NCBI RefSeq assembly: GCF_022695985.1
Contig: NZ_JAAPBF010000015.1
Coordinates: 1 to 64,000, forward strand
Length of the DNA stretch: 64,000 nt
Direction: 5' to 3'
DNA from: Streptomyces sp. NP-1717
GTDB taxonomy: Bacteria; Actinomycetota; Actinomycetes; Streptomycetales; Streptomycetaceae
The position numbers and the translations under genes are program-made. The notes under the pieces were generated by a model. That model was given only the letters and a program-made list of their open reading frames with translations, searched no databases and was not told the origin of the DNA. Below, piece after piece: positions 8,037 through 36,190 of this stretch (position 1 is the stretch's first letter; each line of letters opens with the position of its first letter).

Positions 8037-8055
8037 CGGTGCCCCTCTCCGCGGC

Positions 8056-8685
8056 TCATTCGCCGCGGTACAACTGGCGCTTGTCGATGTAGCGCACCAC
8101 ACCGTCCGGCACCAGATACCAGACCGGATCGCCCTGCGCGACCCTTCCCCGGCAGTCGGTCGACGAGATCGCGAGCGCGGGCACCTCCACCAACGAGACG
8201 CCGCCCTTGGGCAGTCCGTCGTCCGTCAGATCGTGTCCGGGCCGGGTGACACCGATGAAGTGGGCCAGCGCGAACAGCTCTTCGGCGTCCCGCCAGCTGA
8301 GGATCTGGGACAGCGCGTCCGCCCCGGTGATGAAGAAGAGATCCGCGTCGCCGTGCAGGGAGTGCAGATCCCGCAGCGTATCGGTGGTGTAGGTCTTGCC
8401 GCCACGGTCGATGTCGATACGGCTGACCGAGAACTGCGGGTTGGAGGCCGTCGCGATGACCGTCATCAGATAGCGGTCCTCCGCCGGAGAGACCGCCGTC
8501 TGGCTCTTCTGCCACGGCTGTCCCGTCGGTACGAACACCACCTCGTCGAGATCGAACAGCGCGGCCACCTCGCTGGCCGCCACCAGGTGTCCGTGGTGGA
8601 TCGGATCGAACGTCCCGCCCATCACGCCGAGACGGCGTCTGGCGCCGCCTTTCGCGCCGGCGGCCGGCACTTCCTGCTCTCCCAT
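8056..8685 (-). CDS. nadD: Nicotinate-nucleotide adenylyltransferase NadD
   Basis: 209 residues from ATG 8685; the Shine-Dalgarno is weak, but homologues begin near here. The nucleotidyltransferase motif [12 protein letters not shown] (~20-31) binds ATP with its histidines, and ISSTDCR near the end is the second ATP-binding ISSTxxR motif. The enzyme joins nicotinate mononucleotide and ATP to make deamido-NAD in NAD synthesis. It begins an operon with the LCP-like gene (19-nt gap), rsfS and the phosphatase; the small membrane gene 8724-8888 lies 38 nt upstream and may belong to the unit. Confidence 0.95.
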
Positions 8686-19590: not shown

Positions 19591-19885
19591 AGAACGACCT
19601 ACCTTGAGATGAGTGGGGGACGCTGTGATGGTCGCACTCTCCGTGACCGTCTCGCAAGGCGGACGCCGGATGCCCCTCACCCACAGGAAACCATCCGTTC
19701 ACCCTCTGGCCAGCCACATTGGGTCGTCATCCGGCCAAGTACGGCGTGACCGACACCACATCGGCACGCCGGACCGGTATGTACCTCCACGGGACCTCTA
19801 CTTCGCGTCCGCTATTTCGCGATCGCGGTGTAAGTACTACGTAAGGGAAATCCCCTGCTCGTCAGCCCACTACGCGGTTTCCGCG

Positions 19886-21922
19886 CTATTTCCGCGGTGC
19901 GTCCGCGACGTTGACGATGAGGTCGTTGGTCCCCATGTACATGATCCGCACCCGCACCCACTGCGCCGGCCGGCTCCTCAGTTTACGGACCACTCTGCGC
20001 AACGGTCCCCAGGGCCTGCTCTTGCGCACCTCCGTAACCGGGTACTCGTAGATCGGGCGCTTCTCCACGACGTCGTCGAGGACCCGCGCGACCTTCACCG
20101 GGGCCGCGTCCGGGGCGTACTTGAGCAGCAGGTCCCACGACTCCGACCTGGCGATCTGCCGCCCGGCGGGTCCCGACACGGGGAAGGTGAAACGGAATCC
20201 CCGCTCCCCCTGGCGGCTGCCCGCGTACGTCAACTCCTCGGCGGGCTTGCCCCGTCGGCGTACCACCAGTGACGGGTCCTGGGCCATCACGCCGGCGCCG
20301 AACAGCTCGCCCGCGACCGTGATGCGCTTGCCGTCGACCCGGATGTCACCGGCCTCCGCGTGGATCGGCCGGACCCATGAGCGGAGCGCGAGCTGCTTCT
20401 GGGGCCGGGTCGCGTAGGGGACGAGATTGTGGACGGGCTCGCCGTCGCGCGCGCGTTCGCAGGCGCTCATCGCGCCGCGCTGGTCGACGGAGCGGGCGGC
20501 GATCCGTACCCGCCGTCCGGATTCCGGGAGTTCGGCGAAACACTCCCAGACACCCTCGGTGAACGCGGCGTCCGCCGGAATCGTGACCGTGCCGTTGCCG
20601 GACATCGGGAAGACACGCTCCTGGGTACGGATGTCGGAGCGCACACAGACCAGCTTCAGGCCGTCGTGGACGACGGCCGCGGCCTGCGGGGCGACGAGCG
20701 AGAAGGCCACCGCGCCGCCGGACTCCACCACGCAGTCGGCGACCGGCGCGAAGTCGCCGACGGCCGCGCGCTGGGCCGAGACGGTCCGCAGCTCGCCGAA
20801 GAGTTCCTCGTACTTCTTGGCGACCTGGCCGGGGTCGAACCGTGAGGCGTTCTTCACGGCCGCCGCGCTCATCCGGCGGCGCAGCGGCTCGTCGTCGATG
20901 AGGGTGAGCAGCGCCCGCGCGACGGCGTCGGGGTCCGAGACGGGCACCAGCAGGCCGTCCACACCGGGCTGGAGGATCTCCCGGGGGCCGTAGTCGCAGT
21001 CGCTGCTGACGACGGGCAGGCCGCAGCGCATGGCCTCCACGAGGGTCATGCCGAACGACTCGTGGCGCGAGGTGGACGCGGCGATGGCGCCCTTCGCCCA
21101 CTCGGGCTCGATGGGCGAGACTGAGCCCATGAGCCGCACGCTGTTGTAGAGGCCGAGCTTGTCGATCTGCTGACGGAGGTTCTCCTTCTCCGGGCCCCCG
21201 CCGTAGATCCTCAGGTCCCACTCCGGGCGCTCGGCGACGACCTTGGCGAAGGCGTCGACGAGCACGCTGTACTGCTTCTCGGCGGACAGCCGGCCGGCGG
21301 CGACGATCGTGGTGCCGGAGCCCGTGGAGGGCTCGATCGACGGCTCGGGCACGCTGTTGGAGATGGCGAGCACCCGGGTCGCGGGCAGCGGCATCTGCGC
21401 GCGGTAGACGGCGGCGTCGCCCTCGGAGACGGTGACGTAGGCGTCGAGCGCGTCGATGTGCTGGTACATCTCGTTGCGCAGCGCGGGCTTGTGGTGGTTG
21501 TACGTCATGTGTTCCTGGCCGATGAGCACCGCGCTCGCCGGGGCGAACTGGGCGACGTACGCGGCGAGTCCGGGTCTGGTCCCGATGACGACGTCGGCGT
21601 CCGAGTCCGCGTAGTGGTCCCTGACCCGCTGGTCGGTCAGCTTGCTGTACTCGCGGTAGCGCGCCTCGTTGCGCGGGAAGTACTCGGCGGGCTGGAGATG
21701 GAGCGGATGGTCCTTCTCGTACGCCGGGGACTCCTTCCAGGTGTGGATGAGCGGCACGAGGGTGATGCGGGGGTCGACGTCGAAGAGCGGGACGGGCCGG
21801 TGCCGGAAGACCGAGACGATCTCCACCTCATGCTGCCCGGCGAACTCCTCCGCGAGGTTCAGCGTGGTGCGGATGGTGCCGCCGATGCCATAGATGGTGT
21901 GGATGAGGAAGGAGATCTTCAT
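19886..21922 (-). CDS. GT4-family glycosyltransferase with extra C-terminal region, glycopolymer block 1
   Basis: 678 residues from ATG 21922 (GGAGCG 6 nt upstream). Residues ~1-385 form a GT-B fold of the GT4 family (MKISFLIHTIYGIGGTIRTTLNLAEE; AAGRLSAEKQY; HESFGMTLVEAMRCGLPVVSSD, the EX7E motif). Residues ~400-678 are an extra beta-rich region ending in a basic stretch (RKSRPWGPLRRVVRKLRSR), without a recognised domain. Similar C-terminal appendices occur on transferases that decorate or build teichoic acids, so it may glycosylate the polyol-phosphate polymer made by the neighbours. Donor and acceptor are unknown. Confidence 0.75.
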   Translation of the reverse strand: MKISFLIHTIYGIGGTIRTTLNLAEEFAGQHEVEIVSVFRHRPVPLFDVDPRITLVPLIHTWKESPAYEKDHPLHLQPAEYFPRNEARYREYSKLTDQRVRDHYADSDADVVIGTRPGLAAYVAQFAPASAVLIGQEHMTYNHHKPALRNEMYQHIDALDAYVTVSEGDAAVYRAQMPLPATRVLAISNSVPEPSIEPSTGSGTTIVAAGRLSAEKQYSVLVDAFAKVVAERPEWDLRIYGGGPEKENLRQQIDKLGLYNSVRLMGSVSPIEPEWAKGAIAASTSRHESFGMTLVEAMRCGLPVVSSDCDYGPREILQPGVDGLLVPVSDPDAVARALLTLIDDEPLRRRMSAAAVKNASRFDPGQVAKKYEELFGELRTVSAQRAAVGDFAPVADCVVESGGAVAFSLVAPQAAAVVHDGLKLVCVRSDIRTQERVFPMSGNGTVTIPADAAFTEGVWECFAELPESGRRVRIAARSVDQRGAMSACERARDGEPVHNLVPYATRPQKQLALRSWVRPIHAEAGDIRVDGKRITVAGELFGAGVMAQDPSLVVRRRGKPAEELTYAGSRQGERGFRFTFPVSGPAGRQIARSESWDLLLKYAPDAAPVKVARVLDDVVEKRPIYEYPVTEVRKSRPWGPLRRVVRKLRSRPAQWVRVRIMYMGTNDLIVNVADAPRK

Positions 21923-22281
21923 CAACGCTCCGTTCGGTGTTCGGAATCCCGGGCGGTCATTCCCAAGTTCCCCTTCAGGTCCGGACGGGTTCACGCGGCC
22001 CCTGGCCGCCCCCACATGCAAGACGGGCGAAGCCGACCGACGGTTGTGCGAGCACTTGAAAAGAAACCGCATGACTCATTATTCCGCCCATATCGCTCAA
22101 TACCCGTAGATGGCTTTCGGTCAACCGGCGCGTCGCGCGGTGCGCGCACGAGAAAGCCGCGGCCCGCTCCCGGTGGAGCGGACCGCGGCCCTGTCGCGTG
22201 CGGTGCGTGACGCTTCGATCACTGATCGAAATCGACCCTTACGGAGGCGGGTCCGAGCGGGACGGAAGCCGCCCGGAACCG
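21923..22281. other. Gap between the GT4 gene and obg
   Basis: 359 nt without a gene. It holds the obg terminator (22156-22189) and, at 22060-22110, an AT-rich patch for this genome (minus strand GGAATAATGAG, TTTCTTTTC) that is the most likely place for the GT4 gene promoter. I could not place a -35/-10 pair with confidence. Confidence 0.5.
22156..22189 (-). terminator. Intrinsic terminator of the rplU-rpmA-obg operon
   Basis: On the minus strand a 15-bp stem (GCCGCGGUCCGCUCC with its partner, one U-G wobble) and an ACCG loop are followed directly by TTTCT, 92 nt past the obg stop. Confidence 0.8.
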
Positions 22282-24453: not shown

Positions 24454-24742
24454 GCGGATCTCACTCTCGCTCGGAACGGAACTCCTGAAGCCAGCCGCCG
24501 CAACCGGATGGTGACGAGCGGCCTCCGCCGACGGCGTCGAGGACAGCCACCGGCAGGTGAGGTGCTCAGGAGAGTTGACGCGCACAGAAACACGCCGACG
24601 GTCAAGAGTACGGGGCGGCCGGGTGGGGGGTCAAACCAGGTGGGGGCGGGGCCGGAAGCCCGGCAACCCGTTCCCTCTCTTCAGTGTCCGCGGCGGTGGG
24701 ACGCCCGCGGGTGCGAGACCGTCGTGGGTCTAGGGTGTCGTG

Positions 24743-25819
24743 ATGGTCTCACCCCTGTCGCCGGCCCGGACCGGGACCCCGTCGTCCGACACCGCTCCCA
24801 TCGGTGCCCGCGGCGTGGAGCGGGATCCGTTCTTCGACAACGCGAAGTACCTGGCCATCGTCCTGGTCGCCGTCGGGCACTCGTGGGAGCCGCTGCCGGG
24901 CAGTGGGCGGGTGGTCGAGGCCCTCTACACCTTCGTGTACGCGTTCCACATGCCCGTCTTCATCGTGATCGCGGGCTACTTCTCGCGCGGCTTCGACATG
25001 AGCCCGAAGCGGGTGTGGCGGCTGGTCACCGGGGTCCTGGTGCCGTACGCCGTCTTCGAGGTGGCGTACACGCTCTTCCACCGCGCGGTGGACGACCCGG
25101 GCTTCCCGCTCACGCCCGCCGACCCGTACTGGATCCTGTGGTTCCTGCCCGCCCTGTTCCTGTGGCGGATCACCACGCCGTTCTGGCAGCTGGTCCGGTG
25201 GCCGGTGCCCCTGTCCCTGGCCGTGGCCGCGCTGGCGTCGATGTCGACCGGGATCGGCGACGACCTGCAGCTCATGCGCGTCCTTCAGTTCCTGCCGTTC
25301 TTCGTCCTGGGTCTGTGCCTGCGCCCCGAACACTTCGCGTATCTGCGCCGCACCGGGGTGCGGATCGCGGCGCTGCCCGTCGCTCTGGTCGCCCTGCTGG
25401 TGGCGTACTGGTCGGTCCCGCGCGTCACCACTTCGTGGCTCTTCAGGAGCTACAGCGCCCGCGAGCTCGACGAGCCGGTCTGGACGGGCGCGGCGATGAC
25501 CCTGCTGATGTTCGCCGCGGCGCTCGTGCTGGGCGCGTGCTTCCTGGCCTGGGTCCCGCGCCGCCGCCTGTGGATGACCGCGCTGGGCGCCGGGACGCTC
25601 TACGGCTACCTGCTGCACGGCTTCTTCGTCCGCGGGGCGCGGTATCTCGGCGGCTACGACCACCCCTTCCTGGAGACCCAGGCGGGCCGCGTCGCGGTGA
25701 CGCTGACCGCGGCGCTGCTGGTGACTGCGCTGTGCACGCCGCCCGTGCGGCAGGTGTTCCGTTTCGTCGTGGAGCCGAGGATGCGGTGGGCGCTGCGCCG
25801 GGGCGAAACCAAGGCGTAG
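24743..25819 (+). CDS. Acyltransferase 3 family membrane protein
   Basis: 358 residues from ATG 24743. TAGGGT at 24731-24736 sits at -10 distance, so the mRNA may be leaderless; the GTG at 24740 is an alternative start. About ten membrane helices are seen. The N-terminal FFDNAKYLAIVLVAVGHSWEP has the catalytic-type His of the family, and YAFHMPVFIVIAGYFSRG follows. The ending YGYLLHGFFVRG is also typical. The family transfers acetyl or other acyl groups to extracytoplasmic sugars (OatA, WecH, fungal O-acetyltransferases). It is the first gene of block 2 and likely O-acylates the glycopolymer; the acceptor is inferred. Confidence 0.8.
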   Translation: MVSPLSPARTGTPSSDTAPIGARGVERDPFFDNAKYLAIVLVAVGHSWEPLPGSGRVVEALYTFVYAFHMPVFIVIAGYFSRGFDMSPKRVWRLVTGVLVPYAVFEVAYTLFHRAVDDPGFPLTPADPYWILWFLPALFLWRITTPFWQLVRWPVPLSLAVAALASMSTGIGDDLQLMRVLQFLPFFVLGLCLRPEHFAYLRRTGVRIAALPVALVALLVAYWSVPRVTTSWLFRSYSARELDEPVWTGAAMTLLMFAAALVLGACFLAWVPRRRLWMTALGAGTLYGYLLHGFFVRGARYLGGYDHPFLETQAGRVAVTLTAALLVTALCTPPVRQVFRFVVEPRMRWALRRGETKA

Positions 25820-25940
25820 GCCCACATCGACGGGCTCGGCCCGCGCACCGTCGCACGGCCCGTGCTCGCCGTCGGGGGCCGCGCGCCGCGACGTATGCTC
25901 AACCGTCGGAAACGTGCACGGAAATCCGAAAGGCAGCAGC

Positions 25941-26552
25941 GTGAACTACAGGGTCCAGCCAACCGCCCAGGTCGACGAGACCGCGGTGGTCGGTGACGGC
26001 AGCAGCGTCTGGGAGCTCGCGCAGATCCGGGAGAACGCGCGCCTGGGGGAGAACTGCGTGGTCGGGCGTGGTGCCTACGTCGGGACCGGGGTGCGGATCG
26101 GTGACAACGTCAAGATCCAGAACTACGCGCTGGTGTACGAGCCCGCCGAGCTGGCCGACGGTGTCTTCATCGGACCCGCCGTCGTCCTCACCAATGATCT
26201 GAACCCCCGCTCCGTCGACCCGGACGGCAAGCTCAAGCGCGGCTCCGACTGGGAGGCGGTGGGGGTGAAGATCGCGGAGGGCGCCTCGCTGGGCGCCCGG
26301 TCGGTCTGCGTCGCGCCCGTGCGTATCGGCCGCTGGGCGATGATCGCCGCCGGGGCCGTCGTCACCCAGGACGTGCCGGACTTCGGGCTGGTCGTGGGTG
26401 TCCCGGCCCGCCGGATCGGCTGGGTCGGGCGGGCCGGTGTGAAGCTCGTGGAGCGTGCCGGGGAGCCCGGGGTGTGGGAGTGCCCCCGGACCGGCGCACT
26501 GCACGACGAGAAGGACGGCGTGCTCACGGAGCGGCTCACGCGCACCGTCTGA
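25941..26552 (+). CDS. Left-handed beta-helix N-acetyltransferase, WbpD/WlbB-like
   Basis: 203 residues from GTG 25941. Hexapeptide repeats cover ~10-170 (VGDGSSVWELAQIRENARLG; RIGDNVKIQNYALVYEPA; GVFIGPAVVLTNDLNPRS; GVKIAEGASLGARSVC). The TNDLNPR segment is characteristic of the WbpD/WlbB group. These enzymes acetylate the 3-amino group of UDP-2-acetamido-3-amino-2,3-dideoxy-glucuronate with acetyl-CoA. The aminotransferase that would make the substrate is the DegT gene at 35072-36190 in the same block. wecB follows 69 nt downstream. Confidence 0.8.
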   Translation: MNYRVQPTAQVDETAVVGDGSSVWELAQIRENARLGENCVVGRGAYVGTGVRIGDNVKIQNYALVYEPAELADGVFIGPAVVLTNDLNPRSVDPDGKLKRGSDWEAVGVKIAEGASLGARSVCVAPVRIGRWAMIAAGAVVTQDVPDFGLVVGVPARRIGWVGRAGVKLVERAGEPGVWECPRTGALHDEKDGVLTERLTRTV

Positions 26553-26621
26553 ACCGCACGCACACGAAGAACCCGTCACACATCAGACCGCCACCACCGT
26601 GGCCTTGCAGAAGAGTGTTCG

Positions 26622-27743
26622 ATGAAAGTCATCAGCATCGTCGGTGCCCGTCCACAGCTGGTCAAGCTCGCGGCCGTCGCGGCGGCGTTCGCGCGCACCG
26701 AGCACCAGCACGTCATCGTCCACACCGGACAGCACTACGACGCCGACCTCTCGGACGTCTTCTTCTCCGGCCTCGGGATACCCGACCCCGACGTCCACCT
26801 GGGCGTCGGATCCGGCAGCCACGGTGTCCAGACCGGGGCGGTCCTCTCCGCCCTCGACCCGGTCCTCGAAGCGGAGCGGCCCGACTGGGTGCTGGTCTAC
26901 GGGGACACCAACTCCACCGTCGCCGGCGCGCTCTCCGCGGTGAAGCAGCATCTGCCGGTCGCCCATCTGGAGGCGGGCCTGCGGTCGTTCAACCGCCGGA
27001 TGCCCGAGGAGCACAACCGCGTCCTCACCGACCACTGCGCCGATCTGCTGCTGGCCCCGACCGCCGAGGCCATGCGCCACCTCGCCAACGAGGGCCTCGC
27101 CAAGCGCTCGGAGCTGGCCGGCGACGTGATGGTCGACATCTGCCTGCGCATCCGCGACGCGGTGCTCGCCGGTGAGTTCCCGGCCCCGGCGCTGCCCGAG
27201 GGCATCGATCCCTCCGAGCCGTTCCTGCTCGCCACCCTGCACCGTCCGGACAACACGGACGACCCGGCCAGGCTCGCCGCGATCCTCAAGTCGCTGGCCG
27301 AACTGCCGGTCCCGGTGGCGCTGTTGGCACACCCGCGCCTGGTGGCCAAGGCGCAGCTCCACGGTATCGAGCTGAACCAGGGCGCGGTGCGCGTGGGCCG
27401 GCCGCTTCCGTACGCGGGGCTCGTCGCCGGCGTCCTGGCGTCCACCGGTGTGGTCACCGACTCGGGCGGCCTCCAGAAGGAGGCGTACCTTCTGGACCGC
27501 GTCTGCACCACGATCCGCCCGGAGACCGAGTGGGTCGAGACCCTTGAGGACGGCTGGAACCACCTGGTCCCGGACCCCCACGAGCTGGCCCCCGAGAAGT
27601 GGGCGGCGCTGGCCGTACGGCCGGCCCCGACGGCCCCGCACGGCGCCCCGTACGGCGACGGCACGGCCGCGCGGCGCGTCGTCGAGCTGATGGAGCAGGC
27701 CACGGAACGGATGCGGGTGCCCGCCCAGGCCGTCCACGCCTGA
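26622..27743 (+). CDS. UDP-N-acetylglucosamine 2-epimerase family (WecB/WbpI-type)
   Basis: 373 residues from ATG 26622. The epimerase GT-B-like fold is complete: SIVGARPQLVKLAAV, HTGQHYDADLSDVFF, YGDTNSTVAGAL, HLEAGLRSFNRRMPEEHNR, TLHRPDNTDD, TDSGGLQKEAYLL and TIRPETEWVETLEDG. It inverts C2 of UDP-GlcNAc or of its diacetamido-uronate derivative, giving the manno form. The gene set around it (WbpA, B, E and D homologues) favours the WbpI role, that is UDP-GlcNAc(3NAc)A to UDP-ManNAc(3NAc)A. A plain ManNAc/ManNAcA pathway is the alternative. It is the last of the three plus-strand genes and ends at a 15-bp bidirectional terminator. Confidence 0.88.
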   Translation: MKVISIVGARPQLVKLAAVAAAFARTEHQHVIVHTGQHYDADLSDVFFSGLGIPDPDVHLGVGSGSHGVQTGAVLSALDPVLEAERPDWVLVYGDTNSTVAGALSAVKQHLPVAHLEAGLRSFNRRMPEEHNRVLTDHCADLLLAPTAEAMRHLANEGLAKRSELAGDVMVDICLRIRDAVLAGEFPAPALPEGIDPSEPFLLATLHRPDNTDDPARLAAILKSLAELPVPVALLAHPRLVAKAQLHGIELNQGAVRVGRPLPYAGLVAGVLASTGVVTDSGGLQKEAYLLDRVCTTIRPETEWVETLEDGWNHLVPDPHELAPEKWAALAVRPAPTAPHGAPYGDGTAARRVVELMEQATERMRVPAQAVHA

Positions 27744-27758
27744 CGGGCAGTCGTACGA

Positions 27759-27793
27759 GGAGGGCCCACCCGCGCCGTGCGGGTGGGCCCTCC
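27759..27793. terminator. Bidirectional terminator between wecB-like and GT4 genes
   Basis: A perfect 15-bp stem (GGAGGGCCCACCCGC and its complement) with a 5-nt loop stands between two convergent stop codons, 16 nt from one and 27 nt from the other. Confidence 0.85.
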
Positions 27794-27819
27794 TTCGTCA
27801 ACGGCGTCGACGGCGGCCG

Positions 27820-29394
27820 TCAGCCGAGGTGCTTCAACAGCCGCTCGTACAGTGCCACATACTTCTCCGTCTGCGCTTCCCAGCTCCACTCGTCGAGCAT
27901 CCCCGGCCGGTCGTACGGCGCGGTGTACCGGTCGCGGTCGCTGAGCACGGCGCCCACCGCCCGCGCCAGGTCCTTGCCGTTCTCGGACCGGAAGACCTCG
28001 CCGTTGCCGACCCGGTTGACCTCGTCCGACATGGCCTTCACATCGCTGACCACGACGGGCAGCCGGGCCTGCATGAACTCGAAGAACTTGGTGCTGAGGG
28101 CGACTTCGTGGTTCACCGGCCCCTTGCGCAGCGGGTGGATGCCCACGTCCGCCGTCGACAGGAACCGCACCAGCACGTCGTACGGCACGTACGGCATGAA
28201 GTGGACGCGGTCCGCGGCGCCGATGCTCTCGGCCAGCTCCCGCAGCGAACCGACGTAGTCGCCGTCCAGGTTGTTGATCATGAAGGCGGCGTGCAGGTCG
28301 TCCGAGAACGCCAGCGACTCCACGATCGTGTGCAGGCAGCGCTGCGGCGCCGCCCCGCCGCAGTACACGGCGAGCGGGGTGTCCGGTCCGAGTCCGCACG
28401 CCTCGCGTACGTCCCTGGCACCGTCCTCCGTGGTCCAGTCCGAGGCCCCCTCCTCGCCGGGTACCAGCCTCGGCGGCGCGTTGAGGGTGACGACCGGCAG
28501 CTCCGTCAGACCGTGCGACGTCTGGAGCATCTCCGCCAGCGCCGGCGAGACGGTGACCACCGCGTCGACGTAGGGGATGTGCTCGCGCTCGTACGCGATC
28601 TGCGAGGCGAGCCACTTCTTCGAGGTGACGGCCTGCGCGAGTCCCGGCACGAACTCGTGCGCGTCGTAGACGACCCGCACATCACGGCCCGCCGCGCGGG
28701 CGCGCACGCCCGCGCGCGCCGCGACACCGATCATGCGGTAGTCGTGCGCGTGGATGAGATCGGGCTGGAGCTCCTCGATCTTGTCGCGGTAGCTGAGCTC
28801 GTAGCGCAGGGGCAGCGGATCCAGCCGCCGCCACGCCCTGTCCCCCATCGTGGCGCCCCAGAAGGCCGTCTCCAGGCCCTCAAGCGCACCGTTCTTGTCG
28901 CCCCAGGCGGCTGCCGCCGCCTTCGTCTGACGGGTCCTGGCCTGGATGGCGCTGCGCCGGACCTTGCCCGCCAACCGGGCCGCGATGAGCGGCAGTTGCT
29001 TGGTGTTGGGACCCTTCGCGATACCGGTACGGGCGGCCGCGCGCCCGGCGCGCACCTCCAGTTCGGCCCAGTCGACCTTGATACGGCGGCTCTTGAGCAG
29101 CGCCATGTCCTGGTTCTCGTACGCCAGCGGGTAACGGATGCCCGTCACCCGGCGGCGCAGCGACTTGCGCGGGGGCAGCCGCCGGAGCATCAGCCGGTGG
29201 ATCCGGGCGCCACCGAGTTCGTAGCTGTCCGCGCCGGTCGCCGGCGCGCGGCCTATGAGGTGGACCTCCCACCCCTCGTCCGCCATGGCCCGTGCGTGCT
29301 TCTGGACACGTGAGTCGCCGTCGATGGTGTTGTCGACGAGCATCACGACTCGTCCGGGGCGACGCTCTGGCATCTGACTCGTTCCTCTGCTCAC
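27820..29394 (-). CDS. GT4-family glycosyltransferase, block 2 (paralogue of 32312-33922)
   Basis: 524 residues from GTG 29394, four nt after the dehydrogenase stop; ATG 29373 is an alternative start. The N-terminal GRVVMLVDNTIDGDSRVQKHARAMA and later PDLIHAHDYRMIGVAARAGVRA are nearly the same in the paralogue three genes upstream. A donor-binding half follows with AVYCGGAAPQRC, HFMPYVPYDVLVRFLSTADVGIHPL and STKFFEFMQARLPVVVSD. A basic, helical ~120-residue insertion (~80-200) separates the first strands from the rest. It probably adds one sugar of the polymer repeat. Donor unknown. Confidence 0.8.
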   Translation of the reverse strand: MSRGTSQMPERRPGRVVMLVDNTIDGDSRVQKHARAMADEGWEVHLIGRAPATGADSYELGGARIHRLMLRRLPPRKSLRRRVTGIRYPLAYENQDMALLKSRRIKVDWAELEVRAGRAAARTGIAKGPNTKQLPLIAARLAGKVRRSAIQARTRQTKAAAAAWGDKNGALEGLETAFWGATMGDRAWRRLDPLPLRYELSYRDKIEELQPDLIHAHDYRMIGVAARAGVRARAAGRDVRVVYDAHEFVPGLAQAVTSKKWLASQIAYEREHIPYVDAVVTVSPALAEMLQTSHGLTELPVVTLNAPPRLVPGEEGASDWTTEDGARDVREACGLGPDTPLAVYCGGAAPQRCLHTIVESLAFSDDLHAAFMINNLDGDYVGSLRELAESIGAADRVHFMPYVPYDVLVRFLSTADVGIHPLRKGPVNHEVALSTKFFEFMQARLPVVVSDVKAMSDEVNRVGNGEVFRSENGKDLARAVGAVLSDRDRYTAPYDRPGMLDEWSWEAQTEKYVALYERLLKHLG

Positions 29395-29397
29395 CGC

Positions 29398-30681
29398 TCA
29401 GCCGCCGATGACGACACGGCGGACGCCACGCCAGGCGTCCGGGTCGGTGGTACGCCGGCCGTCGACGAGCACGGTGACGTCCGGCAGGTCGGCCGGCTTC
29501 AGGTCGCGGTACTCGGCGTGGTCCGCCTGGAGCACCGCCGCCGTGACCTTCTCGCCCTCGTGCGGCGGCAGGCCGTGCGCGGTCAGCTCCTCGGAGGTGT
29601 ACATCGGGTCGGAGACGTACGGCACGGCGCCGCGCGCCCGCAGGGCTTCGACGGTCGGGAAGACACCGGAGAACGCCGTCTCCTTCACGCCGCCGCGGTA
29701 GGCCGCGCCGAGCACGAGCACGTTCACGCCGGTGAGGTCGCCGTACGCCGCCGCCAGGAGGTCCACCGCGTACTCGGGCATCGCCGCGTTCGCCTCGCGC
29801 GCCGAGCGCACGACGGTCGCCGCCGGGTCGTTCCACAGGTACATCCGCGGGTAGATCGGGATGCAGTGGCCGCCGACGGCGATGCCGGGCTGGTGGATGT
29901 GGCTGTACGGCTGGCTGTTGCAGGCCTCGATGACCTTCTTGACGTCGATGTCGTTCTGGTCGGCGAAGCGCGCGAACTGGTTGGCCAGGCCGATGTTGAC
30001 GTCGCGGTACGTGGTCTCGGCGAGCTTCGCCAGCTCGGAGGCCTCGGCGGTGCCGAGGTCCCACACGCCGTTGTCGCGCGGCAGGTCCTCGCGTACGTCG
30101 AAGTCGAGCACGGCCTCGTAGAAGTCGACGCCGTGCCTGGCCGACGCCTCGTCGATGCCGCCGACGAGCTTGGGGTAGCGGCGCAGGTCGGCGAAGACCC
30201 GGCCGGTCAGGACGCGTTCGGGCGAGAAGACGAGGTGGAAGTCCTCGCCGGGGGTGAGCCCGGAGCCCTCCTGGAGCATCGGCGCCCAGCGGGTGCGGGT
30301 GGTGCCGACGGGCAGGGTGGTCTCGTAGCTGACGAGGGTGCCGGGCTTGAGGCCCTTGGCGATCGCCTTCGTCGCCGCGTCCATCCAGCCGAAGTCGGGC
30401 ACGCCCTCGGCGTCCACGAAGAGCGGGACGACGACCACCACGGCGTCGGACTGCGCGACGGCGGCGGCGGTGTCGGTCGTGGCCGTCAGCAGTCCGGCGT
30501 CGACGGTTTGCTTGAGCTTGACGTCGAGGTCGTGCTCGCCGGGGAAGGGCTCTGTGCCGGCGTTGACCAGCTCGACGACCTTCTCGTTGACGTCGGCGCC
30601 GAAGACGCGGTGGCCCTTGGCGGCGAACTGCACGGCGAGCGGCAGACCGATCTTGCCGAGCGCGACTACACAGATATTCAT
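29398..30681 (-). CDS. Nucleotide-sugar 6-dehydrogenase (WbpA/WecC-type UDP-GlcNAc or UDP-ManNAc dehydrogenase)
   Basis: 427 residues from ATG 30681, overlapping the GT2 stop as ATGA. An N-terminal NAD-binding Rossmann fold begins NICVVALGKIGLPLAVQFAAKGH. The central domain has SPERVLTGRVFADLRRYPKLVGG, and AVGGHCIPIYPRMYL is a His-containing variant of the usual GGHCI(P) segment. The catalytic Cys is in this GGHC. The C-terminal domain has VLGAAYRGGVKETAFS. It oxidises C6 of a UDP-hexose to the uronate with two NAD+. In context it should make UDP-GlcNAcA, the first step of the diacetamido-mannuronate route. Confidence 0.85.
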   Translation of the reverse strand: MNICVVALGKIGLPLAVQFAAKGHRVFGADVNEKVVELVNAGTEPFPGEHDLDVKLKQTVDAGLLTATTDTAAAVAQSDAVVVVVPLFVDAEGVPDFGWMDAATKAIAKGLKPGTLVSYETTLPVGTTRTRWAPMLQEGSGLTPGEDFHLVFSPERVLTGRVFADLRRYPKLVGGIDEASARHGVDFYEAVLDFDVREDLPRDNGVWDLGTAEASELAKLAETTYRDVNIGLANQFARFADQNDIDVKKVIEACNSQPYSHIHQPGIAVGGHCIPIYPRMYLWNDPAATVVRSAREANAAMPEYAVDLLAAAYGDLTGVNVLVLGAAYRGGVKETAFSGVFPTVEALRARGAVPYVSDPMYTSEELTAHGLPPHEGEKVTAAVLQADHAEYRDLKPADLPDVTVLVDGRRTTDPDAWRGVRRVVIGG

Positions 30682-32315
30682 CGGATTACTTTCCTCTTGA
30701 ACCGGGGCAGCAGGCTTCGTACCCGCGCCCGGAAGGATGGTGTCGGCTCCCACAGCGGAGCCGTGGTGATCACCAGTCGTCCCTTGGGATTCACATTGGC
30801 CGACGCGCGGTACGGGACGGCGTCGCCCCACCGGCGGGCCAGCGGCATCGGCAGACCCCGGGTACGGATCGGGATCTCGTAGGTGGATCCGGCGACGTCG
30901 ACGTAGACGCGGGCACCGGCCTTGATCCGGGCCGCCGTGAGCGGGATCCGGGCGGTCAGGACGGTGCCGCCACCGCCGTCGGGCTCCGGCACGCGGGTGA
31001 ACTCGCCGACCGGGTCGGCGAGTTGGTGCCCGGCGGGCAGCCGGCGGGCAGCCGCCTTGTCCGCGCTGTTCGGCATCGCGGTGCGGGCCAGCCGGATCAC
31101 GGCGGAGTCGGTCTGTCCGGTGACGCCGATCCGTACGGTGAACACGGCGAAGAGCGTGTCGCCGGTCCGCTCCCACCCCGCGGAGATCAGCCGGGTGCCG
31201 TTGGCGAGCCGGCCGGGGACGGCTTCTCCCACCAACTCGTAGCCCCGGTCGGGGAGTCGGAGGATCGGGTCGCGCAGACCGGGGTAGGCGGCGTACGCCC
31301 GCCCGTCTTCGAGCAGGAACGGCGGCGCGCCGTGCTCGGTCTCGTCGGCGATGGCCTTGGTGAGTTCGGCCACAGCGCCACGCTGGGCCAGCATTATCCG
31401 TACCCGCCGTTTGACGTCGAGCGAGTCACGCAGCGCGTCCGTCAGATAGTCGTCGGCGAGTTCGGCGACCCCGGCGCACAGCTCGCGCTGCGTCGCGGGG
31501 GCGAGGGTCGGGAAGTCGTCCTGGACGAGCTTGGCCAGCTCCCAGGTGAAGTGCCGCTTGAGGACGGCGTCGCGCTGGGGTCCCGCCTCGATCAGACCGG
31601 CCGTGTGCCGCATGATGCGGGCGGTGCAGTGCAGCCTGGACAGGTGGTCGGCCCGGTAGGTGATGTTGCTCGCGTCGCCGCGCTTCACCGCGTAGTAGTA
31701 CGTGTAGTCACCGAGGACGGAGATCCGGCCGGCCCGGACGCACGCCTCGATGGTGAACGGCTGGTCGCTGCCGACCGGCAGGTCCTCGGGGAAGCGGAGC
31801 TTGTGCCGCTCCACCAGCTCACGCCGGAAGAGCTTGGTGTTGGCGAGGGTGAACGGCAGGTCGGAGCCGTACAGACTCACATCGGGATCGTTCTTCTTGT
31901 ACATCGCCTGGCGCACGTAGCGGCCGTTGGTGCCGACCATCTTGCCGATCACCACGTCCGACCCGTGCTCGTCGGCGCAGGCCACCATGCGCTCCAGGGC
32001 CTCTTCGCCGAGGTAGTCGTCGGAGCCGACGAAGTAGACGAAACGGCCGGTGGCGATCTCCAGGGCGCGGTTGCTCGGCGCCGCCGGGCCGCCGCTGTTC
32101 TCCTGGTGGATCACCTTGACGGTGTCCGGGTACTCCTTGGCGAACCGGTCGAGCTCGGCGCCGCTTTCGTCGGTCGAGCCGTCGTCGACGGCCACGACCT
32201 GGAGTCGCTCCAGGCCGATGGACTGGCCGACGAGCGAGTTCAGGCACTGGGTCAGGTAGGGCATCGTGTTGTACACGGCCACCACGACCGTGACATCGGG
32301 AGTGGTCGTCGTCAT
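30678..32315 (-). CDS. GT2-family glycosyltransferase with C-terminal extension, block 2
   Basis: 545 residues from ATG 32315, overlapping the upstream GT4 stop as ATGA. The longer open frame to 33614 is a shadow of that gene. The GT-A domain (~8-230) contains VTVVVAVYNTMPYLTQCL, VVAVDDGSTDES, ENSGGPAAPSNRAL and the DxD-like FVGSDDYL. A helical middle (~240-350) and a beta-rich C-terminal part (~370-520: AVFTVRIGVTGQTDSAVI; RVYVDVAGSTYEIPIRTRG) follow. GT2 enzymes with such additions (TarS, TarP) work on teichoic acids, which suits a wall-polymer role. The donor is not predictable. Confidence 0.8.
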   Translation of the reverse strand: MTTTTPDVTVVVAVYNTMPYLTQCLNSLVGQSIGLERLQVVAVDDGSTDESGAELDRFAKEYPDTVKVIHQENSGGPAAPSNRALEIATGRFVYFVGSDDYLGEEALERMVACADEHGSDVVIGKMVGTNGRYVRQAMYKKNDPDVSLYGSDLPFTLANTKLFRRELVERHKLRFPEDLPVGSDQPFTIEACVRAGRISVLGDYTYYYAVKRGDASNITYRADHLSRLHCTARIMRHTAGLIEAGPQRDAVLKRHFTWELAKLVQDDFPTLAPATQRELCAGVAELADDYLTDALRDSLDVKRRVRIMLAQRGAVAELTKAIADETEHGAPPFLLEDGRAYAAYPGLRDPILRLPDRGYELVGEAVPGRLANGTRLISAGWERTGDTLFAVFTVRIGVTGQTDSAVIRLARTAMPNSADKAAARRLPAGHQLADPVGEFTRVPEPDGGGGTVLTARIPLTAARIKAGARVYVDVAGSTYEIPIRTRGLPMPLARRWGDAVPYRASANVNPKGRLVITTAPLWEPTPSFRARVRSLLPRFKRKVIR

Positions 32316-33922
32316 GGTCTGGGCTCCGACTTCTTCCGCTCCGTGACCAGCTTCGAGTACAGCTCGTCCAGCACTTCGGCCTGCGCTTCCCACGTCCACG
32401 CGTCCAGCAGCCCCGGCTTGTCGTAGACGGCCCGGTACGGTTCCGGGTCGGCGAGGACCTGCTTGATCGCGCGGGCCAGGTCGTCCGTGTCCTCGGCGGT
32501 GAAGACCTCGCCCTGGCCGGTGGACCGGGTGACCTCCGACATCGTTCTCACGTCGCTGACCACCAGCGGCAGCCGCGCGTGCGAGTACTCGAAGAACTTG
32601 GTGATCAGCGCGATCTCGTGGTTCGGCCAGTGGTGGATCGGGATGCAGCCCGCGTCCGCGGCCGACAGGAAGCGCACGACCTGCCAGTGCGGCACGTACG
32701 GCACCGTGTGCAGACGGTCGCCCGCCCCCAGCTCCGCGGCGCGCGCCAGCAGGGTCTCCATGTAGGCGGACGTGGGGTTGGGCACCACGAACGCGATGTG
32801 GACGCCGTCGAGCTTCGGCAGCGTCTCGACCAGGTCGCCGAGGCCGCGCTGCGGTCCGGGCGAGCCGCTGTAGACGATCAGCGGGACGTCGGGGCCGATG
32901 CCGCACAGCTCGCGCAGGTCCGGCGTCGGCTCCGGCTCGCCGTCGGCGGTGACACGGGTGATCGCGTGCGCCTCGGCGTCCGCCGGGCGGTCCGGCGCGT
33001 TCAGGACGACCGTCGGCCGCTCCGTCAGCCCGTGCCGCTCGATCAGCAGGTCGGAGAGCCCTTCGGAGACCGTGACCACCGCGTCGGCGTACGGCGCGTA
33101 CTCGCTCTCGTGCGCCGTGTTGCCCGGGATCCAGTGGGCGTTGTCCTCCCAGGGGCGTACCCCGGGCAGGAACTCGTGCGCGTCCCAGACCAGCTTGACC
33201 GAGCGGCCGGCGGCCCTGGCGCGGACCGTGGCCCGCGCCCCGACGCCGAGCATCCGGAAGTCGTTGGCGTGGATGAGGTCGGGCTTGAGCGCGTCGATCT
33301 CCGGACCGTACGTCAACTCGTAGTCCCACAGGGCGGGTTCGAGTCTGCGCCAGGCGCGCTTGCCCTTGACGGCCGTCCAGGCCGCGGTGAACAGCCGGTC
33401 CAGCGGGCCGCGCAGCCGGCGGCCGGCCTGCTGGGCCGCCGTGCTGTGCCGCGAGCGCAGGCCCACCCAGCGCTGCACGATGTTGGAGACCGGGCCGGCC
33501 ACCCGGAGACGGACGCCTTCGACCCGGCGGAACAGCGGGGTGCCGACCGCCTTCGGTGCCACCTTGAGCGCGGCCCGGCGCGTCGCGACGTCCGCCCGCC
33601 ACGCCTTGGCCCACTGCCGCCGGTACGCGGCGACCGGGCCGGGCGGGTAGGCGAGCGGGCGGCGCAGCAGGGAGCGGTGACGTTCGGCGTGGCGCTTGGC
33701 GAGCGGGGCCTTCAGCGGCAGCAGCCGTACCTCCGCGTCACCGAGCTTCCAGCTGCGGCCCTTGCCGGTGCGGACCAGCCCGAGCAGGGTGACGTCCCAG
33801 CCGGCCGCCGCCGCGGACTCGGCGGCCTTCTGCACCCGTGAGTCGCCGTCGACCTTGTTGTCGACGAGCATGACGACGCGCCCCTTGCCGGTCATCTCAC
33901 CACCGGCACTCTGCGTATCCAT
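32312..33922 (-). CDS. GT4-family glycosyltransferase, block 2 (paralogue of 27820-29394)
   Basis: 536 residues from ATG 33922 (AGG 6 nt upstream); GTG 33946 is an alternative start. It shares the layout and many segments of the GT4 at 27820-29394: GRVVMLVDNKVDGDSRVQKA, PDLIHANDFRMLGVGARATV, LVWDAHEFLPG, LHTVPYVPHWQVVRFLSAAD and ALITKFFEYSHARLPLVVSD. It has the same long basic insertion after the first strands. The two probably arose by duplication and add different sugars. It is the first of a tightly overlapping run (GT4-GT2-dehydrogenase-GT4) and lies 139 nt after the Gfo/Idh gene. Confidence 0.8.
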   Translation of the reverse strand: MDTQSAGGEMTGKGRVVMLVDNKVDGDSRVQKAAESAAAAGWDVTLLGLVRTGKGRSWKLGDAEVRLLPLKAPLAKRHAERHRSLLRRPLAYPPGPVAAYRRQWAKAWRADVATRRAALKVAPKAVGTPLFRRVEGVRLRVAGPVSNIVQRWVGLRSRHSTAAQQAGRRLRGPLDRLFTAAWTAVKGKRAWRRLEPALWDYELTYGPEIDALKPDLIHANDFRMLGVGARATVRARAAGRSVKLVWDAHEFLPGVRPWEDNAHWIPGNTAHESEYAPYADAVVTVSEGLSDLLIERHGLTERPTVVLNAPDRPADAEAHAITRVTADGEPEPTPDLRELCGIGPDVPLIVYSGSPGPQRGLGDLVETLPKLDGVHIAFVVPNPTSAYMETLLARAAELGAGDRLHTVPYVPHWQVVRFLSAADAGCIPIHHWPNHEIALITKFFEYSHARLPLVVSDVRTMSEVTRSTGQGEVFTAEDTDDLARAIKQVLADPEPYRAVYDKPGLLDAWTWEAQAEVLDELYSKLVTERKKSEPRP

Positions 33923-34061
33923 CAACTGCCTTTCTGAACCGGTCACTTGAGGAAGCTGCTGCGGACCTGCGGTCCGGTGCGGTCCCCGGGCTCCCCACCG
34001 CCGGTGTCGGCGTCGGAGAAGCGGCGGGGACCGGTCGGGAGAAAACCGTCGGCGCCGGGTC

Positions 34062-35075
34062 TCAGCCGGGGCTGTACTCCGAGTCGAGCCGTACGGTCGT
34101 GCCGTTGGCGGCCGACTCCAGCAGGGACGCTGCCACCTCGACGGTGCGCAGACCTTGCCGCAGTGTGCAGATGTCGTGCGACTCGCCGAGCACGGCGTCG
34201 CGGAACAGCTCGTGCTCCACCAGCAGCGGCTCGCGCTTGGGGATGGCGTAGCGGATCATGTCGCCCTCGGCCACACCGCGGAACGCGCGCAGCGCCTCCC
34301 ACTCGGTGGTCACCGCCGCGTTGGAGTAGAAGGTCAGGTCGGCGGTCAGCGTGTCGGCGATGAAGCAGCCGCGCTCGCCGGTGACGGAGGTGAAGCGCTC
34401 CTTGAGCGGGCTCAGCCAGTTCACCAGGTGGTTGACCATGGTGCCGTCGGAGAGCCGGCCCACGGCGGAGACCATGTCCTCGTGCGGGCGGCCGCTCTTG
34501 GACACCGTGTGGGCGGAGATCGAGGTGTACGTCTGGCCGGTCACCCAGCCGGTCAGGTCGATGTCGTGGGTGGCGAGGTCCTTGACCACGCCGACATCGG
34601 CGATCCGGTGCGGGAACGGTCCCTGACGGCGCGTCACCACCTGGTACACGTCGCCGAGTTCACCGGCCTCCAGCCGGGCGCGCAGGCTGCGCAGCGCCGG
34701 GTTGCAGCGCTCGATGTGGCCGACGCCGGCGACGAGGCCGCGCGATTCGAACGCCTCCACCAGACGGCGCGCGCCGTCGACGGTGTCGGCCAGAGGCTTC
34801 TCGATGAGCGCGCCGACGCCGGCCTCGGCGAGCTGGAGGCCGACCTCCTCGTGCAGGGCGGTCGGGCAGGCGACGACGGCGTAGTCGACGCCGATCGCGA
34901 GCAGTTCCTCGACGGTGGCGAGGACGGGCGCGCCCTGGGCGAGTCCGTTCTTGTCGCCGAGCGGGTCGACGACACCGACGAGCGTGACGCCGTCGAGCCC
35001 GGCGAGTACACGTGCGTGGTGGCGCCCCATCGAGCCCAGGCCGATCAGCCCGGCGCGCAGTCCCCCGGTGGTCAC
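34062..35075 (-). CDS. Gfo/Idh/MocA-family oxidoreductase, WbpB/WlbA-like
   Basis: 337 residues from GTG 35075, overlapping the DegT stop by 4 nt. The Rossmann fold begins RAGLIGLGSMGRHHARVLAG. EKPLADT contains the family's EKP lysine (ALIEKPLAD). The later VKDLATHDIDLTGWVTG holds the conserved HD(I/L)D pair. WbpB/WlbA enzymes oxidise C3 of UDP-GlcNAc-uronate to the 3-keto sugar. The tight coupling to a DegT aminotransferase, which would aminate that ketone, supports this role; other sugar 3-dehydrogenations are possible. Confidence 0.82.
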   Translation of the reverse strand: MTTGGLRAGLIGLGSMGRHHARVLAGLDGVTLVGVVDPLGDKNGLAQGAPVLATVEELLAIGVDYAVVACPTALHEEVGLQLAEAGVGALIEKPLADTVDGARRLVEAFESRGLVAGVGHIERCNPALRSLRARLEAGELGDVYQVVTRRQGPFPHRIADVGVVKDLATHDIDLTGWVTGQTYTSISAHTVSKSGRPHEDMVSAVGRLSDGTMVNHLVNWLSPLKERFTSVTGERGCFIADTLTADLTFYSNAAVTTEWEALRAFRGVAEGDMIRYAIPKREPLLVEHELFRDAVLGESHDICTLRQGLRTVEVAASLLESAANGTTVRLDSEYSPG

Positions 35076-36190
35076 AGGTTCTCTCCCAGCTCGTTCACGG
35101 CGGAAACGATTCGCTCCAGGTCCGACTCGGAAAGCGAGGGGTGCACGGGCAGCGAGACGACCTCGGCGGCGGCCCGCTCGGTCTCCGGCAGATCCCAGTT
35201 CCGGCCGGCCTTCTGGTCCGGCTCCCAGAACGGCCGCAGCCGGTGGATGGGGGTCGGGTAGTACACGGCGTTGCCGACGCCCGCCTCGGTGAGCCTGGCC
35301 ATCGCGGCGTCGCGGTCACCGGTGATCCGGACGGTGTACTGGTGGTAGACGTGGTACGCGCCTTCGGCGACCGGCGGCGTCACCACACCGGGCGCGGTGA
35401 TGTGCTCGCTCAGGTACGCGGCGTTGGCGCGGCGCTGCTCCGTCCAGCCGGCGAGCTTGGTGAGCTGCACCCGGCCGACGGCGGCGGCCACGTCGGTGAG
35501 GCGCATGTTGGCGCCGACGATCTCGTTCGCGTACCGCTGCTCCATGCCCTGGTTGCGCAGCAGGCGCAGGGTGCGGGCGACCTCGGCGTCACCGGTGGAG
35601 ATCATGCCGCCTTCGAGGGAGTGCATGTTCTTCGTCGGGTAGAAGCTGAAGGTGCCGCCGGAGCCGAAGGCGCCGACGGGCGTGCCGTGCAGTGACGCGG
35701 CGTGCGCCTGGCAGGCGTCCTCCACGACGGCGAGCTTGTGCTTGTCGGCGATGGGCATCAGCCTGTCCATCGACGCCGGGTTGCCGTAGAGGTGCACCGG
35801 CATGATCGCGGCGGTGCGCGGGGTGATCGCGGCCTCGACGGCCGCCGGGTCGAGACCGAAGTTGCCGGGCTCGATGTCGGCGAAGACGACGTCGGCGCCG
35901 ACGAGGCGAACGGCGTTGGCCGACGCGGCGAACGAGAACGACGGCACGATCACCTCGTCGCCCGGGCCGATGCCGAGGGCGAGCAGCAGGAGATGGAGTG
36001 CCGAGGTGCCCGAGTTCACGGCCACGCAGTGGCGGCCGGCGACGAGCTCGGCGAAGCCTTCTTCGAACGCGGCCACCTCGGGGCCCTGGACGACCCGGCC
36101 GGTGCGCAGTACGCGTACGGCGGCCTCGATCTCTTCCTCCCCGATGACCGGGCGGGCAGCGGGGATGGGCTGCGCTTCACTGCTCGACAT
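35072..36190 (-). CDS. DegT/DnrJ/EryC1/StrS sugar aminotransferase, WbpE/WlbC-like
   Basis: 372 residues from ATG 36190. Fold-type I PLP motifs are present: NSGTSALHLLLLALGIGPGDEVIVPSFSF, VVEDACQAHAASLHG and the PLP lysine in SFYPTKNMHSLEGGMI at ~190. LRNQGMEQRYANEIVGANMRLTDVAAAVG is also typical. It should transfer the amino group of glutamate to the 3-keto group of UDP-GlcNAc(3-keto)A made by the oxidoreductase it overlaps. It starts the minus-strand half of block 2, so the promoter lies in 36191-36460. Confidence 0.85.
   Translation of the reverse strand: MSSSEAQPIPAARPVIGEEEIEAAVRVLRTGRVVQGPEVAAFEEGFAELVAGRHCVAVNSGTSALHLLLLALGIGPGDEVIVPSFSFAASANAVRLVGADVVFADIEPGNFGLDPAAVEAAITPRTAAIMPVHLYGNPASMDRLMPIADKHKLAVVEDACQAHAASLHGTPVGAFGSGGTFSFYPTKNMHSLEGGMISTGDAEVARTLRLLRNQGMEQRYANEIVGANMRLTDVAAAVGRVQLTKLAGWTEQRRANAAYLSEHITAPGVVTPPVAEGAYHVYHQYTVRITGDRDAAMARLTEAGVGNAVYYPTPIHRLRPFWEPDQKAGRNWDLPETERAAAEVVSLPVHPSLSESDLERIVSAVNELGENL

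Follow-up and report, generated by a model that had tools for sequence, protein, structure and literature searches.

The 64,000-nucleotide stretch of Streptomyces sp. NP-1717 analysed here (the window; contig NZ_JAAPBF010000015.1) holds a locus that, judged from its genes, belongs to the utr kind, published in 2025 as the teichuronic acid (TUA) locus of S. griseus with the proteins UtrA to UtrJ assigned (PMC13274773). We consider it probable that the locus is homologous to that of S. griseus and that it makes the uridine diphosphate (UDP) derivatives of 2,3-diacetamido-glucuronate (GlcNAc3NAcA) and 2,3-diacetamido-mannuronate (ManNAc3NAcA), which are likely polymerised on ribitol-phosphate wall teichoic acid, in a re-ordered route. 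More tentatively, we propose that the actinomycete route combines an archaeal-like module for the 3-amination of UDP-N-acetylglucosamine (UDP-GlcNAc) with an acetyltransferase and an epimerase of the Wbp type, C6 being oxidised last but one, and that in this strain a cassette of the epimerase and a family-4 glycosyltransferase (GT4b), swappable between sister species, would change the polymer from a GlcNAc3NAcA chain to a copolymer of GlcNAc3NAcA and ManNAc3NAcA, uronate throughout; in other words, it would act as a switch of wall chemotype. Both the change in step order and the chemotype cassette would go beyond the published utr account. Gene content, enzyme families, co-occurrence and the cassette difference from a sister locus are the observations established here.

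The utr gene set and the kinship of its enzymes

The members of the utr core lie all together in the window: an aminotransferase (UtrA), an oxidoreductase of the Gfo/Idh family (UtrB), a TarS-like glycosyltransferase (UtrC), a dehydrogenase (UtrD) and an N-acetyltransferase (UtrJ). They stand beside L21 and L27, which serve as anchors of utr loci in Streptomyces (PMC13274773), with TarIJ and TagF near, and they are accompanied by the 2-epimerase UtrH, a variable member of the published family. In S. griseus, nuclear magnetic resonance (NMR) gave a repeat of N-acetylgalactosamine (GalNAc) and ManNAc3NAcA with GlcNAc3NAcA at the reducing end, on a ribitol-5-phosphate teichoic acid, and the polymer was lost upon deletion of utrC; the polymer of S. 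antibioticus, which is without UtrE, UtrF and UtrH, is a GlcNAc3NAcA homopolymer, and in both species the utr polymers, whose structure varies by species, are the receptors of umbrella toxins (PMC13274773). The preliminary description of this DNA had predicted a teichuronic-acid-like wall polymer with ManNAc3NAcA, and homology to the NMR-solved case supports that prediction. Because the S. griseus locus is already in print (PMC13274773), neither the joint presence of the genes nor the product guess, which thus has a precedent, is new in kind; in the literature listings, PMC13274773 was the sole account of such a locus from Streptomyces.

No UtrE, UtrF or UtrG, likewise variable members, was found at the window locus; in relatives, these types were recognised from gene order and Pfam domains rather than from the S. 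griseus sequence. A search of the strain's own genome gave no UtrG relative at E 1e-5, and the same query matches locus L100 at 64%. UtrG was also considered as kin of the GT4 pair described below, which is not claimed: BLAST gave no match above 29 bits, and the profile match covered just 159 columns at 80% probability.

Could the locus serve an unrelated exopolysaccharide, or a sugar of some natural product, and not the wall at all? Related UtrA-UtrB pairs are indeed found on a plasmid, in a cluster that also holds carrier-protein, TauD and NUDIX genes, but the window set has a TarS-like transferase, together with the anchors and teichoic neighbours common to the S. griseus utr locus, and we regard such a product as highly improbable.

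An epimerase scan of genome contigs was used to study co-occurrence; its best 80 loci include 61 with full flanks, at which the five enzymes UtrA, UtrB, UtrD, UtrH and UtrJ were matched at an identity of at least 40% over at least 20% of the query. Since 52 of these 61 loci hold all five within about 21 kb, and 57 hold UtrA, UtrB, UtrD and UtrH, the gene set is not a product of chance. All five are also present at loci of Actinoplanes, Micromonospora, Actinomadura, Glycomyces, Nocardioides and Kribbella. In a survey of the genus, covering 121 genomes including the window's own (E limits 1e-90 for UtrB, 1e-100 for UtrD, 1e-40 for UtrJ, 1e-100 for UtrA and 1e-90 for the epimerase), UtrB was found in 27 genomes, UtrA in the same 27, and UtrD in 26 (all but G075), every one of which also has UtrA, UtrB and UtrJ. 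UtrJ is more widespread (40 genomes, including all those with UtrD), and in 14 genomes a UtrJ-like acetyltransferase occurs without UtrA, UtrB and UtrD. UtrH was found in 13 genomes, in one of them (G110) away from the locus and in 12 beside locus genes, so that 12 of the 26 core loci have an epimerase.

The enzymes were compared with those of seven Wbp-type loci, six haloarchaeal plasmid loci and one Priestia locus, the gene content varying by locus; in the trees, which have midpoint roots, three groups, long branches and no outgroup, the actinobacterial rows were thinned to 8-10 hand-chosen loci. UtrH scores 321 bits with the UDP-GlcNAc3NAcA epimerase of T. thermophilus (8sxy) versus 121 bits with E. 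coli WecB, which rules out a WecB (ManNAcA) reading. The T. thermophilus epimerase acts on the acid and has three pocket changes, Trp307, Tyr96 and Ala18 (PMC10622841). In UtrH, the Trp and the Tyr are retained and Leu (residue 16, 26667-26669) replaces Ala18; Leu occupies this position in 22 of 22 aligned actinobacterial rows, and all 7 rows from Wbp sets, archaea and Priestia have Ala there. Its identity is 45-50% to the Wbp and 45-47% to the archaeal enzymes, and in the tree the actinobacterial epimerases are placed on their own side (100/100). UtrJ, at 146 bits to WlbB (3mqg), is of the WlbB/WbpD type, as had been expected; it is 37-42% identical to the Wbp-set enzymes and 33-40% to the archaeal ones over shorter stretches, and in its tree the haloarchaeal acetyltransferases form a separate clade that excludes the window's (100/100).

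The other three enzymes stand apart from the Wbp branches, for the Wbp clade excludes the window aminotransferase (100/100), the 3-dehydrogenase (100/100) and the 6-dehydrogenase (100/99; L046 and L083 are placed in no group in this last tree). UtrA is 44-49% identical to six haloarchaeal enzymes and 33-43% to seven Wbp-type enzymes, and among structures WbpE (233 bits) ranks below DesV-like and perosamine-type enzymes, the scores of other transaminases reaching 298 and 273 bits. UtrB reaches 25.6 bits with the WbpB chain 3o9z, and P. aeruginosa WbpB (3oa2) is not among the best 60 of its 85 structure matches; the Gfo/Idh enzyme of a Wbp-type cluster in Sulfitobacter scores 357 bits with 3o9z and 411 with P. 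aeruginosa WbpB. Full-length identity of UtrB to the archaeal enzymes is 31-35%, and matches to the Wbp enzymes are short or missing. Its best NCBIfam model is NF040723 (UDP-GlcNAc 3-dehydrogenase; 188 bits, under the cut-off of 450), which gives 230 and 212 bits with two haloarchaeal relatives (also under the cut-off) and no match with the Sulfitobacter enzyme. UtrD is 42% identical to the Priestia enzyme, 37-41% to those of haloarchaea and 28-34% to those of the Wbp sets, with 33% to a wbpA-annotated gene of P. frederiksbergensis that serves as a stand-in for WbpA of strain PAO1. The archaeal UDP-N-acetylmannosamine (UDP-ManNAc) dehydrogenase model NF040825 gives 238 bits with UtrD and the enterobacterial one 186 bits (both under the cut-off), the highest scores among named equivalog models, and the TviB model scores low (92 bits); because the nearest named models are of this type, UDP-ManNAc may still be the UtrD substrate. 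TUA of the TuaD type, as in Bacillus, was rejected, as the UDP-glucose dehydrogenase model TuaD scores 73 bits against a cut-off of 700.

By sequence, therefore, the enzyme set is a mosaic, with an epimerase and an N-acetyltransferase like WbpI and WbpD, and with UtrA, UtrB and UtrD outside the Wbp branches; it is pairwise identity that suggests the nearness of these three to archaea. The preliminary description had seen homologues of all of WbpA, WbpB, WbpE, WbpD and WbpI here, an analogy that is only half right: it stands for WbpI and WbpD, and fails for WbpB and for membership of the WbpE and WbpA clades. It had also named, as contrary evidence, a grouping of epimerase and dehydrogenase with plain WecB and WecC. 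The epimerase is not a WecB, and the top named models of the dehydrogenase are UDP-ManNAc dehydrogenases, so that such a grouping was found in part.

Order of the sugar-nucleotide steps

The precursor route of S. griseus has been called likely similar to the P. aeruginosa pathway (PMC13274773). With the same locus and product, UtrD would then make UDP-GlcNAcA first, and UtrB, UtrA and UtrJ would work on the acid. The Wbp-type acetyltransferase and epimerase agree with this order, as does the acceptance of the acid by the T. thermophilus epimerase (PMC10622841), but UtrB lies outside the WbpB family, UtrA and UtrD lie outside the Wbp clades, and UtrA-UtrB pairs are known without a nearby 6-dehydrogenase; we therefore consider the published order unlikely here. 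Such pairs, 58-70% identical to the window's and with no UtrD homologue in the stretch, are present at L096 (a Streptomyces plasmid, by annotation), L104 and L105, and the genome of L105 (G075) has its sole UtrD relative, at 32%, on another contig. The pairs fit a putative module that works without 6-oxidation. The GnnA/GnnB route is not known to include a 6-oxidation step. Its starting compound is UDP-GlcNAc (PMC8036547). From the placement of UtrB outside WbpB, of UtrA and UtrD outside the Wbp clades, and from the pairs that occur without a 6-dehydrogenase, we infer that C3 receives its amino group while C6 is still unoxidised.

In this order, UtrB would oxidise UDP-GlcNAc at C3, UtrA would aminate C3 of the resulting UDP-3-keto sugar, and acetylation by UtrJ would give UDP-GlcNAc3NAc. 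The C6 oxidation by UtrD would then yield UDP-GlcNAc3NAcA, part of which would be epimerised by UtrH to UDP-ManNAc3NAcA.

Several points weigh against amination before oxidation: (i) the NF040723 score is far under the curated cut-off, so that the name of the model is a lead only; (ii) UDP-GlcNAcA could yet be a substrate for a Gfo/Idh enzyme from a different branch; (iii) the predicted fold model of UtrB is poor, with a predicted local distance difference test (pLDDT) of 51; (iv) the trees exclude UtrA, UtrB and UtrD of the window from the Wbp clades and do not alone join them to archaea; and (v) G065, the genome of L104, has utrD at its own separate utr locus. Locus L046, with the same UtrA and UtrB and a 35% dehydrogenase, was set aside as a counter-example, since its genome does encode a true UtrD relative (85%), which lies on that contig immediately outside the stretch.

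The UtrD-less loci have surroundings of their own. At L096 (3424-9020) and L105 (2839-8798), the pair is accompanied by TauD dioxygenase and NUDIX genes, to which L096 adds a flavin adenine dinucleotide oxidoreductase and a fusion of a phosphopantetheine carrier (PP-binding) with a hexapeptide transferase; these look like a natural-product cluster in which a 3-amino sugar nucleotide would be acylated from a carrier protein. Streptomyces plasmids gave five further hits (H62-H66). At L104 (5643-13321), in a genome that has a utr locus as well, a second UtrA-UtrB pair has two Stealth-family proteins and a GT4 at its flanks, and the stretch contains no 6-dehydrogenase homologue.

If the proposed pathway order is correct, it would be a second route to a sugar listed from Gram-negative O-antigens (PMC10622841).

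The epimerase-GT4b block and the polymer

GT4a and GT4b are paralogues, as had been noticed earlier, with 46% identity. The sister locus L098 (genome G044) matches the window at 95-97% in protein and 92-94.5% in DNA for UtrA, UtrB, UtrD and UtrJ, and at 87% for UtrC and UtrI; for GT4a, the values are just 60% and 73.6%. By blastn, a 2.9-kb block of the window (26534-29397), consisting of the epimerase gene, a hairpin and the GT4b gene, is absent from L098. The flanks of the block match at 86% (24726-26533) and 83% (29398-33883), and in L098 these two matches are separated by 76 nt. Inside the block, GT4b alone cross-matches the L098 GT4a gene, at 67%, and the rest of G044 gave no epimerase match at E 1e-90. 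The difference may reflect either a gain or a loss of the block. G044 also has a GT4a relative (60%) away from its utr locus.

Relatives of GT4b at 69% or more are found in G053 (one of the 120 other genomes), L002 and L028, in each case beside an epimerase. GT4a relatives at 60% or more occur in 13 other genomes of the 121, and 12 of these 13 have no epimerase at the locus, the exception being G053 (G110 has one elsewhere). Because the sister lacks exactly the block, because GT4b relatives adjoin an epimerase and because GT4a relatives are mostly without one, these observations suggest that the epimerase and GT4b may form a chemotype cassette that adds ManNAc3NAcA. GT4a itself is 80-84% identical in amino acids to genes in seven genomes (G065, G110, G057, G082, G013, G019 and G098) whose core enzymes resemble those of the window less closely than do those of the sister; such identity in less related genomes, set against 60% in the sister, suggests exchange.

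In the assembly that we propose, UtrC would start the chain by placing a first GlcNAc3NAcA onto ribitol phosphate made via TarIJ and TagF, GT4a would extend it with GlcNAc3NAcA and GT4b would add ManNAc3NAcA, whereupon UtrI would acetylate the chain end. This scheme is a prediction from sequence as regards every substrate, the sequence of steps, what each of the two GT4 enzymes does, and the product.

The objections to this assembly are that UDP-sugars other than these may be the donors for GT4a and GT4b, that the published chains hold beta-linked uronates and GT4 folds are typically retaining, that the link between GT4b and the epimerase rests on four loci, the window included, and that G107 has an epimerase with a GT4a relative at 52%. 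Moreover, a UtrE-like 4-epimerase (66%) is encoded on another contig of the same genome (C460:7615-8595), which leaves room for a GalNAc repeat, and an earlier argument that no GalNAc could be present as utrE is missing was dropped. One of the GT4 enzymes might add to the repeat a second sugar that is neutral or N-acetylated (GlcNAc, or GalNAc supplied through the 4-epimerase on the other contig), just as UtrF is proposed to add GalNAc in S. griseus (PMC13274773). The structure model of GT4b (pLDDT 79.6) has as its best folds in the Protein Data Bank sucrose-phosphate synthase, MshA (titled retaining) and BshA, and its likeness to MshA and to BshA, which was solved with N-acetylglucosaminyl-malate, may favour a second sugar of this kind; however, the 4-epimerase gene is absent at the locus and the GT4b relatives stay with the 2-epimerase, and we take a neutral or N-acetyl second sugar to be possible but doubtful. 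The region around the distant gene (L110:3553-8613) holds, near the 4-epimerase, a CDP-alcohol phosphatidyltransferase/DUF5941 protein and an iron-alcohol-dehydrogenase-like gene.

A third GT4 paralogue of the same genome lies near a contig end (C171; L111:39-7092), 45% identical to GT4b and 59% to GT4a. It adjoins two methyltransferases and a 1172-amino-acid GT2-TagF fusion, possibly a second wall-polymer locus.

Should both the proposed order of steps and the epimerase-GT4b cassette be correct as defined, the type of polymer, and perhaps the target range of the toxins, could be predicted from genomes.

Layout, neighbours and known systems

The nearest named relatives of the window are Streptomyces, S. 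niveus being one of the top hits at 97%. The locus consists of two convergent gene groups between L21/L27/obg and rne (Table 1). The genes named in the preliminary description, including three glycosyltransferases (one GT2 and two GT4) and an O-acyltransferase, are all present, with a codon-position GC typical of real genes and, for each, a Pfam match above the cut-off; the coordinates of the dehydrogenase, the acetyltransferase and the GT2 were corrected, the dehydrogenase being the frame listed rather than a 592-amino-acid open reading frame (ORF). The Gfo/Idh gene overlaps the aminotransferase gene by 4 bases, as described; GT4a and utrC overlap by 4 bases and utrC and utrD by 1 base, and the gap between utrD and GT4b is 3 bases. 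In UtrA, the lysine that binds pyridoxal phosphate is likely K187; in UtrC, D184 of SDQPF is a candidate for the catalytic Asp, for which the published residue is D181; and in UtrD, we take Cys273 in GGHCIP to be the catalytic residue. The UtrI-like enzyme is predicted to O-acetylate the chain end. The hairpin is a possible two-way terminator; it has no T run, and the terminator scan did not return it. That scan found 3 terminators versus 4.2 in shuffles, not above them, and one promoter-like match.

Table 1. Genes and other features of the utr-type locus and its flanks in the window
Feature	Position	Strand	Basis
UtrA-type DegT aminotransferase	35072-36190	-	PF01041 398 bits
UtrB-type Gfo/Idh 3-dehydrogenase	34062-35075	-	K93 (EKP), H170
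GT4a, family-4 glycosyltransferase, between utrB and utrC	32312-33946	-	Pfam GT4 domains
UtrC-type GT2 with TarS linker	30681-32315	-	PF00535 96 bits, PF22181 TarS_linker 38 bits, scored on longer ORF 30678-33614
UtrD-type UDP-sugar 6-dehydrogenase	29398-30681	-	ATG start; TIGR03026 279 bits
GT4b, predicted retaining family-4 glycosyltransferase, GT4a paralogue	27820-29394	-	structure model and fold matches
Hairpin, 14 bp, perfect	27760-27792	.	seen in sequence; separates convergent epimerase and GT4b genes
UtrH, UDP-GlcNAc3NAcA 2-epimerase, WbpI type	26622-27743	+	Pfam 2-epimerase 280 bits
UtrJ, WbpD/WlbB-type hexapeptide N-acetyltransferase	25914-26552	+	ORF start 25914 (corrected from 25941)
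UtrI-like membrane O-acyltransferase (Acyl_transf_3)	24740-25819	+	PF01757 81 bits
obg, L27 (23858-24115), L21 (24130-24585)	22282-24585	-	fixed flank; order kept in relatives
TarIJ-like fusion, IspD and short-chain dehydrogenase	18088-19680	-	PF01128 153 bits, PF00106 104 bits
TagF-like polyol-phosphate polymerase candidate	15802-17946	-	PF04464 26 bits, barely above cut-off 22
LytR-CpsA-Psr wall-polymer ligase candidate	6327-8102	-	PF03816 27, PF13399 29 bits, barely above cut-off

Past obg, as seen from the locus, come the TarIJ-like and TagF-like genes and, beyond them, the LytR-CpsA-Psr gene; the TarIJ-like fusion is predicted to supply CDP-ribitol. Adjoining obg, a 728-amino-acid GT4 with a long C-terminal part (19886-22072) is seen also in L011, L016, L017, L030 and L098 and not in some other relatives sharing the flank; it is perhaps a further variable glycosyltransferase that decorates the teichoic acid.

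Among known systems, the utr loci of S. griseus and S. antibioticus share with the window the types UtrA, UtrB, UtrC, UtrD, UtrH, UtrI and UtrJ, the L21/L27 anchors and the nearby TarIJ and TagF; compared with S. griseus by description rather than by its sequence, the window differs in its pair of GT4 paralogues, one of which lies in the epimerase block. The Wbp-Wlb pathway to UDP-ManNAc3NAcA in Pseudomonas, Bordetella and Thermus has the WbpI-type epimerase, the WbpD-type acetyltransferase and the five reaction types in common with the window, whereas the window 3-dehydrogenase comes from another Gfo/Idh branch, UtrA and UtrD fall outside the Wbp clades, and Leu replaces Ala18 in the epimerase. 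The haloarchaeal plasmid sets (Haloferax, Haloterrigena and others; L084, L085 and L092-L095) are closer by identity than Wbp in UtrA, UtrB and UtrD, but their acetyltransferase belongs to a separate clade, an epimerase is present in just three of the six, and no teichoic genes are annotated in the stretches. Finally, GnnA/GnnB of lipid A (PMC8036547), with which the comparison is one of reactions and not of sequences, follow the same two-step logic, 3-oxidation and then 3-amination.

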